The translations under genes and the position numbers were made by a program. 64,000 bases of DNA, taken from positions 1 through 64,000 of the forward strand of contig PLUF01000115.1 of the NCBI GenBank assembly GCA_003164815.1, read 5' to 3'. Origin of the DNA: Candidatus Gagatemarchaeum stordalenia (GTDB taxonomy: Archaea > Thermoproteota > Nitrososphaeria > Nitrososphaerales > Gagatemarchaeaceae). The notes beneath the pieces are model-generated. The model saw only the letters and a list, made by a program, of their open reading frames with translations, had not been told where the DNA came from and did not search any database. How positions within the stretch are numbered: the first letter of the stretch is position 1; every line of letters begins with the position of its first letter. Positions 41,993-45,875 of this stretch are shown piece by piece.

Positions 41993-43168
41993 CTAGTTCC
42001 GCGGAAGTCCGGAACTCTCTCTTATCTTGATGATCAGGTTCTCGAACCTGCTCATGAGTTCCGGACCGCTGAACGCCCACGCCTTGGTCTCTTCATCGAA
42101 CAGCGTATAGGAGAATGTGAAGCTGAGGGCGTTGGTCTGATCGAGCACGCTGTACGAAGCTCTGGGCCCGAATGGCGCCAGCGCGTCCTTGAGAAACGAG
42201 AATGCATCATTCACCGTCTCGACAGGGAATGCCAGCTGGGCATGGTAGTCTTTTCCTCCTGCCTCGCACCAGAGGAAGGGGAGCTTGTTCATCGCCCCTA
42301 TCAGTGAAATGCGCTCCGCATCGCTTACCCCTCGCACGAAGACTGGTATCATGATGTACTTGTGCTGCCTGTGCTTCGCCCGGTCCGAGACGGAGTCGTA
42401 GGTCGTCCCCATCCATCTGAGCGCGTATCCGTTGATCATCCCCTTCTCCTTTACGTGCCTCGACCAGTGCCAAGCAAGGGTCTTGTAGTTGATGTCCTGG
42501 CCGTTGTTCGCCTTTATCGACTCCCTTATCTCGCTCAGCGACCTGCTGGCGTCCACCTGCAGCTCCTTCAGGATGAGAAGGTCCAGCTTGTCGAACTTGA
42601 AGGGCTCTGAGATCCTAATTTCGTCGTCCTTGCCTGGCCCCACCGTCTTCGTCCAGTCGAAGTCCCAGTTTCCGTGCTCAAAGTCGAAGAACTCCGCTCT
42701 CATTGGCGTGTTTGTGAACCAGTCAAAGGTGTAAAACTCCAGAGAATCGAAGATCCCTAGCTCTTTCAGGTGCTTCATCAGGTCGATGAATCCCTGTTTG
42801 TGCTCCTTCGGGACGCTCGCGTGCACCATGTAGCTGCTATCCGGGAGCAGCTGGTTGAACGAGATGACGTAACACAGTTTGTTCATGGCGATAAACATCT
42901 CCCTCGCGTAGCGGGAGTACGTCTCGTTCAGACTGACCTTCATGATGACCCTCTGAAGCCCCAGGCCTTCGTAGTTCACGCGGGCATGGATGGCGAAGCC
43001 CTTCCCAAGGATCTTCTCCTTGTACCTGTAACGGATCGTCTCCTTGTATTGTCCGGATATCCGAGCGATGAGGTCGATGTCAGGGCCCATCTTCATTATC
43101 AGGTTTGCCAACTGAGCCATCTCGGGGAGCGCGGTTCCCGAGTTCTTGCCGGTGGGCTCCTTGACCAT
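41993..43168 (-). CDS. tandem winged-helix regulator, archaeal type
   Basis: A 391-residue protein with two similar halves. Each has a HTH-like segment (LIMKMGPDIDLIARISGQYKETIRYRYKEKI near the N-terminus; DLLILKELQVDASRSLSEIRESI in the middle) followed by a beta-alpha domain that recalls the Lrp/AsnC RAM ligand domain. This duplicated layout occurs in thaumarchaeal regulators of unknown target. It has no signal or membrane segment. It converges with the 40-residue gene. Confidence 0.7.
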   Translation of the reverse strand: MVKEPTGKNSGTALPEMAQLANLIMKMGPDIDLIARISGQYKETIRYRYKEKILGKGFAIHARVNYEGLGLQRVIMKVSLNETYSRYAREMFIAMNKLCYVISFNQLLPDSSYMVHASVPKEHKQGFIDLMKHLKELGIFDSLEFYTFDWFTNTPMRAEFFDFEHGNWDFDWTKTVGPGKDDEIRISEPFKFDKLDLLILKELQVDASRSLSEIRESIKANNGQDINYKTLAWHWSRHVKEKGMINGYALRWMGTTYDSVSDRAKHRQHKYIMIPVFVRGVSDAERISLIGAMNKLPFLWCEAGGKDYHAQLAFPVETVNDAFSFLKDALAPFGPRASYSVLDQTNALSFTFSYTLFDEETKAWAFSGPELMSRFENLIIKIRESSGLPRN

Positions 43169-43351
43169 TACAGCTGGCGATGTCCAAGGTCTTTGTATTT
43201 AAGATTATGAAGCGGGCTCTTGCGGAATTGCGGGAGAGGCGCCCGAAACTACCGCCCGCTCGGGAGGCGTCCCCGTCCGCTGTGGAGATTCCTCATGGGA
43301 GCCTGCAAGATGGTGTTTATCTAGTCCTCGGCGAAAAACTCCCCGAGTACC

Positions 43352-43450
43352 TTGGAAACCGGGCGTGGACCCCTCAACTACATAGCCGACGATGCCAAGC
43401 TGGGGAAGAACGTCAAGATCTGGAATTTCGCCTACCACATCTGTGCTTAA
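43352..43450 (+). pseudogene. 5' stub of the acyltransferase gene
   Basis: The reading frame from TTG 43352 encodes a GPLNYIADDAKLGKNVKIWNFAY segment, the normal start of a hexapeptide acyltransferase, then breaks to HICA and a stop. The matching intact gene lies at 44130-44624 and carries a similar start (AVIARNAKIGKGVSVWNLAYVG). A TATA-like GTTTATC box at 43315-43321 serves the stub. It looks like the original 5' end, cut off by the endonuclease insertion. Confidence 0.7.
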
Positions 43451-43473
43451 AGAAGTCAAGCAACTAGAAGAGC

Positions 43474-44133
43474 ATGCCCGAAGGCTCTGGGAACAACAAG
43501 GTTCGAAAAGAAGAGGACTCTCCGGACTCTCCGCACAGAAGGAAGATAGTGTGGTCGGTGGAGGAATTACTTCGGTTGAGAAGCGTGTATCCGACCCAAC
43601 CAATCGAGACCGTGATTGAGGCTTTTCCGATGCGTAATTGGAATTCTATCCAAGCCATGGCCAGAAAGTTGGACCTACACCGACCTCGCCCCCCTCTTCT
43701 GAGCGCGACTTTGAACTCGGAAGGAGACGTGGGATGCTGCGCTGGGATGATAATCGCTGATGGGTGTGTCCTAGAAACGTGCGTTGATTCGGGCAACAGG
43801 AGGGGAAGAAGAGAGGGTGGTGGTCCAAGACCGCGACGATATTATAGCATGCCACAGGTCAGAAGAGGGATGGAAGACAAGGAATCTCTCGAACGCGTTG
43901 GAAGGCTTTGGGGTAGGAAGGTTACATTGTCTGGCAAGAGCAGTTCCGGAAATGATTATTGGACCGTTCAGATCGGTGAGAGAAAAGCTAATGATCTCTT
44001 GAGACTCGTTTTGCCGTACTCCGAAGGAGTGAAGAAGAAGAAAGCTATGTACCTACTGAACAAGTACGGAGAACGAACGCCGCTGCCGGTAGCGAAAAAA
44101 GAGGATTTTCGGCCTTTCGGTGGGCTGTCTTGA
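43474..44133 (+). CDS. LAGLIDADG homing endonuclease-like protein with Myb-type N-terminus
   Basis: A 219-residue protein. Residues about 24-70 look like a SANT/Myb-type helix-turn-helix (VWSVEELLRLRSVYPTQPIE, FPMRNWNSIQAMARKL), then a single LAGLIDADG-like motif CCAGMIIADGCV (residues 88-99). Later segments such as DKESLERVGRLWGRKV and GERKANDLLRLVLPY match the typical second half of such domains. With one motif it would act as a homodimer. The gene lies exactly between the broken 5' stub and the intact acyltransferase and overlaps the latter by four bases, so it both interrupts and is coupled to the host gene. Confidence 0.75.
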   Translation: MPEGSGNNKVRKEEDSPDSPHRRKIVWSVEELLRLRSVYPTQPIETVIEAFPMRNWNSIQAMARKLDLHRPRPPLLSATLNSEGDVGCCAGMIIADGCVLETCVDSGNRRGRREGGGPRPRRYYSMPQVRRGMEDKESLERVGRLWGRKVTLSGKSSSGNDYWTVQIGERKANDLLRLVLPYSEGVKKKKAMYLLNKYGERTPLPVAKKEDFRPFGGLS

Positions 44134-44624
44134 AGCCCGCAAAGTTAGGTGAGGGAGCAGTCATCGCGAGGAACGCCAAGATCGGCAAAGGGGTCTCCGT
44201 TTGGAATCTTGCTTATGTTGGCAATGACACCGTTCTTGGTGACAACGTCATGATCGGCTCGCTCGCCCACGTGGACTACAAGGTGACCATAGGCGCGAAC
44301 ACCAGGGTGGAAGGTTCCGTCTACATCCCACCCCTTACGAAGATAGGGAAAGGTGTCTTCATAGGCCCTGCGGCGGTCATGACCAACGACCCGTACCCGA
44401 TGGGAAAGAAGATGATCGGAGTCACGATCGAGGACGGTGCCATCATATGCGGGGGGTCGGTGATCAAGGCTGGCGTCAGGATCGGTAAGAACAGCGTTGT
44501 CGCCATGGGCGCGGTGGTCACCAAGGACGTGCCTCCCAACACCGTGGTGATGGGCGTGCCCGCGAGGGTCGTGTACACCCGAAAGGAGTACGACGCTAAG
44601 AAGCTGAAGTGGGAGTCCTCGTGA
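44130..44624 (+). CDS. hexapeptide-repeat acyltransferase
   Basis: A 164-residue left-handed beta-helix protein with repeated hexapeptides (GEGAVI, GKGVSV, GDNVMIG, GKGVFIG, GKNSVVAM), ending AMGAVVTKDVPPNTVVMGVPARVV, the usual signature. Members N- or O-acetylate nucleotide sugars. Start TTG 44130 lies in TTGA shared with the endonuclease stop, and a GGTG element sits about eight bases before it. The first third has AT-richer codons than the rest and replaces the 5' stub at 43352, which suggests that the inserted element brought this part. Confidence 0.85.
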   Translation: MKPAKLGEGAVIARNAKIGKGVSVWNLAYVGNDTVLGDNVMIGSLAHVDYKVTIGANTRVEGSVYIPPLTKIGKGVFIGPAAVMTNDPYPMGKKMIGVTIEDGAIICGGSVIKAGVRIGKNSVVAMGAVVTKDVPPNTVVMGVPARVVYTRKEYDAKKLKWESS

Positions 44625-44844
44625 ACTTGGTGTGGAGTGAATCCATCGCGAACATCACTCCCACCCACAGGATGCCGAGCCCCGCGGTGATCAGGACCTT
44701 GAGAACCGTGGAGGGAAGGTCAGCGAGGTGCAGCGGGGGTCCGAGAGGCCTTACGATGACTATGAAGAAGTAGCTCTCCCCTAGGATCAGCAACCAGGCT
44801 ACTGTGACGATGACGAGGAGGCCGTAGATGCTCTTCACTGTCAT
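44596..44844 (-). CDS. small two-helix membrane protein coupled to GPT gene
   Basis: An 82-residue protein with two membrane helices (about residues 7-29 and 46-66). No family recognised. ATG 44844 overlaps the stop of the GlcNAc-1-phosphate transferase-like gene by four bases; an upstream GTG-type start at 44853 is less likely. Coupling suggests that it works with, or folds beside, that membrane enzyme. It converges with the acyltransferase gene, overlapping by 29 bases. Confidence 0.6.
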   Translation of the reverse strand: MTVKSIYGLLVIVTVAWLLILGESYFFIVIVRPLGPPLHLADLPSTVLKVLITAGLGILWVGVMFAMDSLHTKFTRTPTSAS

Positions 44845-45875
44845 ACGAACCACGTCATCCCAGAAGTGATCACCGAGAGGATGCAGGCAAAAGCCGCGAG
44901 CATCAGTATGCCTCTCACCAGGTCGCTCTCGCGCATCGGCTCCCGCGTCAAGATCATCTTAACTAGGGTCGTGGGCGCCCCAGCCGCGGCGGAGGCGTGG
45001 AGTCTGCCGTCCTCTCCCAGATAGGTGGGTCTGGCGGCCATCTTCTTGTGCTCCACGAACCCCCTGATGCTCGACAGGATGTAATACGAGTTAAGGACTG
45101 CCGGGATGGCGGCGACGAGGGCCGCAATCTCGACGCCACCCATGATCGCGAGCGTCGCAAAGAGCGCCCCGAACATCAGGCTGCCGCTGTCCCCGTCAAA
45201 GATCCTGGAGGGGTACCTGTTGTAGAAGTAGAAGCAGAGCGCTGCCGCAGCGAGCGGGAGGGTCGCGGCGAGTCTGATGTAGTCGAACGAGCTCGACGAG
45301 ACGGCGCGGAACACTATCGCGATCAGGAGAGCTGCTGTGGCTATTACGGTGAACCCGGAGAGCTCCCCGTTGAACGCGTCGAGCATGTTGAACGCGTTGG
45401 ACGCCACGGGCATGGCGGCGACGATTAGGATCGCGAAGATGATGTAGTGCGTGCCCGTTCCTCCGAAGAGCGGGAAGTAGAGCTGGGCGTTGTAGAGGCT
45501 CTGGTGCACCATCTCAAGGAGGATGAGAGGCACCGCGGCAAAGCAGAGCAGGAGGGGCTTCACAATCCCTCCCAGTCCCCGGATATCATCGTAGAAACCC
45601 ACGCCCCCGGCGACGAGCGTCACTGCGATGGCCGCGAGAGGTATCGAAGACTCTGCGACCAGATAGATGCCTGCCTCCCCAGCGACGATCGCGAGGATAA
45701 GGAGAGGGCCAGCGGGGGTTGGCACCTTTACTCCCCCCACCTTGTGAACGTCGTTGGCCAATCTCCCCCTCGAGGTGAGCATTCGCATGTAGCCTGGCAT
45801 CAGTGCGAAGATGACGATGCAGGGAACTGCAAAAGCCACTGCGAAGAGAAAGAGGTCTTCGAATGACGGGAGCAA
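44841..45875 (-). CDS. MraY/WecA/GPT-family glycosyl-1-phosphate transferase
   Basis: A 344-residue protein with about ten membrane helices and the family catalytic motifs YDDIRGL (DDxxG), NMLDAFNG and IFDGDSGS. In archaea such enzymes transfer GlcNAc-1-phosphate or a related sugar phosphate to dolichyl phosphate, starting N-glycan assembly (AglH/Alg7 type). The exact sugar is unknown. The neighbouring acyltransferase and distant sugar dehydrogenase-like genes fit the same pathway. Confidence 0.85.
   Translation of the reverse strand: MLPSFEDLFLFAVAFAVPCIVIFALMPGYMRMLTSRGRLANDVHKVGGVKVPTPAGPLLILAIVAGEAGIYLVAESSIPLAAIAVTLVAGGVGFYDDIRGLGGIVKPLLLCFAAVPLILLEMVHQSLYNAQLYFPLFGGTGTHYIIFAILIVAAMPVASNAFNMLDAFNGELSGFTVIATAALLIAIVFRAVSSSSFDYIRLAATLPLAAAALCFYFYNRYPSRIFDGDSGSLMFGALFATLAIMGGVEIAALVAAIPAVLNSYYILSSIRGFVEHKKMAARPTYLGEDGRLHASAAAGAPTTLVKMILTREPMRESDLVRGILMLAAFACILSVITSGMTWFV

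Follow-up and report, generated by a model that had tools for sequence, protein, structure and literature searches.

An acyltransferase gene of a soil-type archaeon of the Nitrososphaerota has very probably been split and rescued by a mobile homing element of about 0.78 kb (positions 43436-44216), which comprises an endonuclease gene together with diverged first 29 codons of its own target and is inserted between the codons for FAY and VG. The window, that is, the whole 64,000-nucleotide stretch of DNA that was analysed, contains a stub of the original 5' end, the endonuclease gene and an intact acyltransferase gene that starts with the replacement codons (Table 1). Stub and gene body are homologous to one native gene, the 5' segment and the body have separate histories, the replacement start has been acquired repeatedly, and the endonuclease decays with retention of that start. 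The original prediction, which read the locus as a homing endonuclease gene that interrupts a host gene and restores it with a new 5' end, is largely supported; its proposals of a cleavage site masked by the replacement and of coupled translation remain inferences.

Table 1. Coordinates of the features of the interrupted acyltransferase locus in the window
Feature	Position	Strand	Description
Candidate TATA-like element TTTATCTA	43316..43323	+	About 30 bases upstream of the stub start, within native upstream sequence retained ahead of the insertion; promoter function inferred
Stub ORF, original acyltransferase 5' end	43352..43450	+	TTG 43352 to TAA 43450; homology to 43435
Insertion junction	43435..43436	+	Native gene would continue from TAC to GTN GG (FAY to VG)
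Homing endonuclease gene	43474..44133	+	ATG 43474 to TGA 44131-44133, 219 aa
Acyltransferase gene, intact	44130..44624	+	TTG 44130 to TGA 44624, 164 aa, hexapeptide type
TTGA overlap of acyltransferase start TTG and endonuclease stop TGA	44130..44133	+	Read from the sequence
Replacement 5' end carried by the element	44130..44216	+	29 codons, to ..WNLAY
Native body of the hexapeptide acyltransferase gene	44217..44624	+	Hexapep PF00132, E=1.3e-20

Stub, junction and replacement start

The full reading of the stub ORF is LETGRGPLNYIADDAKLGKNVKIWNFAYHICA, followed by a stop. It resolves into LETGRGPLNYIADDAKLGKNVKIWNFAY and a tail, HICA, that has no homology to the native gene, and the last codon with native homology is TAC at 43433-43435. 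The last 24 residues of the stub share 70-79% identity with the native starts of uninterrupted congeners (G001, G003, G006 and G007), and over 22 residues the stub is 86% identical to that of G001, as against 50% identity to the replacement start within its own genome. Every uninterrupted relative examined in the Nitrososphaerota has one continuous acyltransferase gene with a stub-type start of the form ..xxNFIAEDAKLGKNVKIWHFAYVG, which corresponds to the stub joined without a break to the body. Because the stub resembles native starts more closely than it resembles the replacement start, and because relatives read stub and body unbroken, it was concluded that the stub represents the gene's original 5' end.

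The acyltransferase was present in 51 of the 61 genomes of the group, and a scan of all GTDB species yielded 80 loci, from genomes that partly overlap with this set. A stub-type start was found at all loci read, with the exception of five genomes. Those relatives that carry names are entered as metagenome genomes of Thaumarchaeota or Nitrososphaerales. Two outcomes that would have refuted the original prediction are absent: the stub is homologous to acyltransferase starts, and relatives that lack the insertion have a single gene and never two separate ORFs.

An 11-mer, TGTTTATCTAG, is common to the window and to uninterrupted G001, where it aligns just upstream of the native start. Because the region upstream of the stub resembles the corresponding region of G001, it is inferred that the native promoter probably drives the stub, the endonuclease gene and the host gene together. 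The window acyltransferase is flanked by genes on the minus strand, encoding a regulator-like protein with a weak match to an AsnC-type HTH (41993-43168) on one side and an MraY/WecA-like glycosyltransferase (44841-45875) on the other.

From position 44217 on, the body matches the remainder of the native gene in uninterrupted relatives, and it is 79-82% identical to the bodies of uninterrupted congeners. The sequence at the junction is ..TGGCACTTCGCCTACGTGGGC.. in uninterrupted relatives and ..TGGAATCTTGCTTATGTTGGC.. at the replacement junction of the window, and 4 of the 15 bases before the junction differ between the stub (TGGAATTTCGCCTAC) and the replacement start (TGGAATCTTGCTTAT) of the window. 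It is inferred that such differences could shield the gene from cutting. Resistance cannot be read from every copy, since the junctions of G002 and G004 carry GCCTACGTGGGC, which is near the native codons. Dyad symmetry centred on the junction, as would be expected of the target of a homodimer, ranked second among 300 positions with 6-base half-sites and 34th with 11-base half-sites; this signal varies with half-site length and is suggestive only.

Differences among replacement segments are distributed over the three codon positions as 0.29/0.24/0.61, and the segment is under purifying selection. The overlap between the endonuclease stop and the acyltransferase start was correctly anticipated. 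The replacement start had further been described as AT-richer in its codons, which holds for the window copy (GC3 of 62% versus 81% in the body) and does not extend to every copy (79% in G002 and 86% in G004). A GC3 boundary, visible in G000, was rejected as a general marker of the transferred tract.

Conflicting histories of the 5' segment and the gene body

The carriers of the replacement start are five genomes, namely that of the window (G000), three others of the same genus (G002, G004 and G005) and one of another genus (G010). The carrier start has the form xKPxRLGxGAVIGxNxxIGKGVSIWNLAYVG and is more diverged in G010. In a tree of the 5' segment (22 residues), the replacement starts of all five carriers cluster as one clade (99/97). 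Both readable stubs, those of G000 and G010, are placed among the native starts, and that of G000 groups with its own genus. The neighbouring genes (GT4, OB and TPase) reject a clade of the five carriers (AU test, p=2e-5) and likewise one of the four congeners (3e-10). The tree of the gene body also rejects the five-genome clade (p=1.6e-5); no rejection is obtained from the short body when only the four congeners are considered (p=0.22). Because the clade formed by the replacement starts is rejected by both bodies and neighbours, it was concluded that the 5' piece moved with the endonuclease and that the rest of the gene did not, in keeping with the prediction that the element brings its own replacement for the lost start. 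The neighbour-gene tree requires four changes between native and replaced start, all of them forced by well-supported branches, and those in G000 and G010 are gains, because stubs are present there.

Site-wise mosaic tests gave Fisher p values of 0.0006-0.03, with the same mosaic in each carrier tested. The first 25 residues of the body are 88% identical to those of native G018 in the case of G010, and 88-92% identical to those of natives G006 and G007 in the case of G005. Judged from these sequence comparisons, the switch of history sits at the insertion point.

Ordinary homologous recombination might instead have exchanged the 5' portion of the gene among distant lineages, with a free-standing endonuclease as a mere passenger, and it is true that recombination is needed in any model and that cleavage has not been demonstrated. 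However, the switch of history and the insertion junction coincide, the old start survives as a stub, and each of the five carriers has the endonuclease or relics of it beside the new start, although the relic in G004 is very short, so this explanation is regarded as improbable. A second possibility is that the locus once held tandem acyltransferase paralogues, the first of which was invaded by the endonuclease and lost its 3' part, in which case the downstream gene would be the second paralogue. The replacement start is indeed about 50% identical to the stub, as in old paralogues, but no relative has two copies at the acyl-TM-GT4-OB-phosphatase locus, the gene order of which is conserved across the family. 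Furthermore, the bodies of the carriers fall with the native bodies of their own relatives and not together, and the history switch falls at the insertion point; the paralogue explanation is thus strongly disfavoured.

Removal of the insert by RNA or protein splicing, which would join stub to body, is scarcely tenable: introns or inteins are the usual location of homing endonucleases, and archaeal rRNA genes contain group I introns (PMC6125680), but the stub ends in a stop, that of G010 (LKPTNYVAPDAKLGKNVGI) is intact to KNV and then broken by a stop, that of G005 is present and frameshifted, the insert ends in a conserved, selected coding start that splicing would not need, no match to the Intron_gpI covariance model was found around the endonuclease ORF, and the region 43250-44400 has no match to a group I intron or any other RNA family at E values up to 10, apart from one snoRNA match at chance level. 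An intein, which would require an in-frame insertion with a splicing domain, was rejected because the stub stops and the endonuclease ORF and host gene lie in different frames.

A homing element that carries a replacement 5' end remains the preferred reading. All genomes are draft metagenome assemblies, and an assembly artefact can be excluded because the arrangement recurs in separate assemblies.

The endonuclease, its decay and a proposed mechanism

The endonuclease contains a single LAGLIDADG motif, AGMIIADG (residues 90-97) with the catalytic acidic residue D96, conserved in G010 and aligned to the AGFVDADG of I-CvuI. An N-terminal HTH/SANT-like domain (residues ~27-65) forms a confident three-helix unit in the model. 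Among solved structures, a profile of the LAGLIDADG-like domain and five others of this kind matched I-CvuI (E=5e-5) and more weakly I-CreI, and the endonuclease family phrog_5046 was matched by the proteins of both the window (E=6e-5) and G010 (E=2e-8). The AF2 model of the domain (pLDDT 71.5) is predicted to follow the order helix-strand-strand-helix-strand-strand-helix-helix, which fits the alpha-beta-beta-alpha-beta-beta-alpha fold of LAGLIDADG homing endonucleases, and its best structural matches in Foldseek were I-MsoI (E=7e-6), I-CvuI and I-CreI, with a probability of 1.0; the full-length protein, modelled by AF2 with two sequences, was poor (pLDDT 49). Pfam and NCBIfam assigned no LAGLIDADG family to the endonuclease, and PADLOC gave it no LAGLIDADG name. 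The Pfam cut-off is a convenience and not a biological defining feature, and the modelled fold and the structural profile agree on membership of the LAGLIDADG family, so the original assignment finds support even though Pfam misses the family. Differences between the G000 and G010 endonucleases at the three codon positions (0.43/0.35/0.65) follow a pattern indicative of purifying selection.

A scan of the endonuclease alignment against genome-contig and viral-contig collections revealed no relatives. When 400 genomes of the class and 400 of the order were scanned, only the carriers contained the endonuclease, which is therefore, as far as sampled, a rare element of one archaeal family. A few weak matches in these scans are other LAGLIDADG-like proteins. 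The weak matches L002, L039, L042, L043 and L141 have no evident host-gene duplication of this kind. L042, a distant relative, matches LAGLIDADG_3 at E=0.0046, below the cut-off. L002, which lies in the same genome as the window (G000:C6:1167-1442, minus strand), is a 295-codon frame with two tandem LAGLIDADG-like domains. The N-terminal HTH/SANT-like domain (FWNNQEINVLRRYYP..FPNRT) recurs in L141 (G425:C318), where fragments resembling an endonuclease come after it in several frames; L141 is perhaps a decaying homing endonuclease.

The recurrence of the endonuclease with a similar host fragment, proposed as a check of the original prediction, was found in G010, where the same endonuclease (47% identity) lies directly upstream of the acyltransferase, and relics are present in the three congeners. 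Because the G010 copy has an in-frame TAG and lacks a usual start, with no ATG, GTG or TTG ahead of the HTH domain, only the window copy is plainly whole. Relics of the endonuclease remain in G002, which has lost the LAGLIDADG motif, and in G005, and only about nine residues resembling it remain in G004. Whatever the state of the endonuclease, the (A/T)TGA overlap persists in all five carriers, and their acyltransferase is intact and begins with the replacement start. In G004 (L127), rearrangement has affected the sequence ahead of the replacement start: the HTH gene does not lie next to it any more, and the short relic borders on unrelated sequence.

In dead copies, the open frame that leads to the overlapping stop exceeds its expected length, with 186 codons in G002 (P=0.0016) and 152 codons in G005 (P=0.005) under a simple first-order model. 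These long frames could reflect either slow decay or a dependence on coupled translation; the host gene may have come to depend on translation from the endonuclease frame. The frame in G002 (L007, minus strand, 1992-2549) ends at the acyltransferase start and has similarity to the endonuclease, and it may serve only as a translated leader.

The proposed sequence of events begins with the endonuclease, probably a homodimer like I-CreI, which would cut the native gene between FAY and VG. The break would be repaired from an element-bearing donor, for which the stub and body sides would act as homology arms, and the native 5' end would persist behind the native promoter as a dead stub. The body would be fused to the 5' segment of the donor, yielding an intact enzyme gene with a junction unlike the cut site, which would be read from the same transcript from a start that overlaps the endonuclease stop. 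Finally, the endonuclease would decay, and the replacement 5' end would be kept because the host gene now depends on it. Cleavage, its site, the repair route, resistance, co-transcription and coupling are all inferred, and there is no biochemical evidence of cleavage.

Relation to known homing systems

The endonucleases I-CreI, I-CvuI and I-MsoI have one LAGLIDADG motif, like that of the window, and sit in group I introns of algal organelle rRNA genes. Unlike the archaeal element, they carry no host-gene segment.

The original prediction rightly pointed to fungal mitochondrial insertions that duplicate a 3' host segment; a closer parallel, which it did not name, is provided by the nuclear WHO elements of Torulaspora and Lachancea yeasts (Coughlan et al., 2020; PMC7282813). 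Both WHO and the archaeal element have a LAGLIDADG-type endonuclease beside its target gene that is not spliced out; homing, inferred for the archaeal element, swaps one end of the host gene for a diverged donor copy, of the old end only a decaying fragment is left, trees of the two gene parts conflict, and endonucleases decay with the host gene intact. The archaeal element fits the description of a WHO-like element, with a carried, diverged gene end, a fragment of the old end and histories that switch at the insertion site. However, WHO elements replace the 3' end of FBA1 and form clusters in eukaryotic nuclear genomes, and their endonucleases are intein-derived, related to HO/VDE, equipped with a zinc finger, located downstream of the target and transcribed independently, whereas in the archaeon the 5' end of an acyltransferase gene is replaced and an endonuclease with one LAGLIDADG motif and an HTH/SANT-like domain lies upstream, with overlapping stop and start. 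On these grounds, the single motif, the HTH/SANT-like N-terminus and the 5' position, membership of the WHO family proper was rejected.

In fungal mitochondria, mobile ORFs bring foreign C-termini to atp6, atp9, cox2 and nad3 in Glomus and to atp6 in Allomyces (PMC3630166). Here too, an endonuclease ORF interrupts a protein gene and brings a diverged version of the end that is displaced, and the fragment of the native end matches relatives; in contrast to the archaeal arrangement, the 3' (C-terminal) end is affected, and the endonuclease lies downstream of the rescued gene, with which it may form an in-frame fusion. The "N-terminal duplication" introns of Tremella (PMC7315562) were considered as a 5' precedent and rejected, as the intron, according to the text, has at its 5' end a copy of the exon that comes after it, and hence of the downstream side. 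No prokaryotic or 5' example was found in the literature searched, which did not cover most subscription journals.

On balance, though without great confidence, the archaeal element is viewed as a new structural kind of prokaryotic homing element, in which an endonuclease travels with a recoded 5' segment of its target, the split gene is rescued through a stop/start overlap, and the N-terminus remains permanently replaced after the endonuclease has died. If this is true, selfish elements of prokaryotes are able to bring along a recoded rescue for the gene that they break, and the third class of homing elements proposed for yeast WHO, neither intron nor intein, extends to archaea and to the 5' ends of genes. 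The element bears on how conserved protein genes are invaded without splicing and on the exchange of gene ends between lineages, and the presence of living, decaying and nearly vanished copies at one site makes its life cycle directly testable. It also bears on natural precedents for recoded-rescue gene drives. In synthetic homing drives of that kind, the nuclease is carried with a recoded part of the target, which keeps the target gene alive; those are engineered CRISPR systems, whereas the archaeal element is natural and evolved. With its mechanism inferred, the archaeal element is the mirror image, 5' rather than 3', of the yeast WHO elements and the fungal mitochondrial mobile ORFs.
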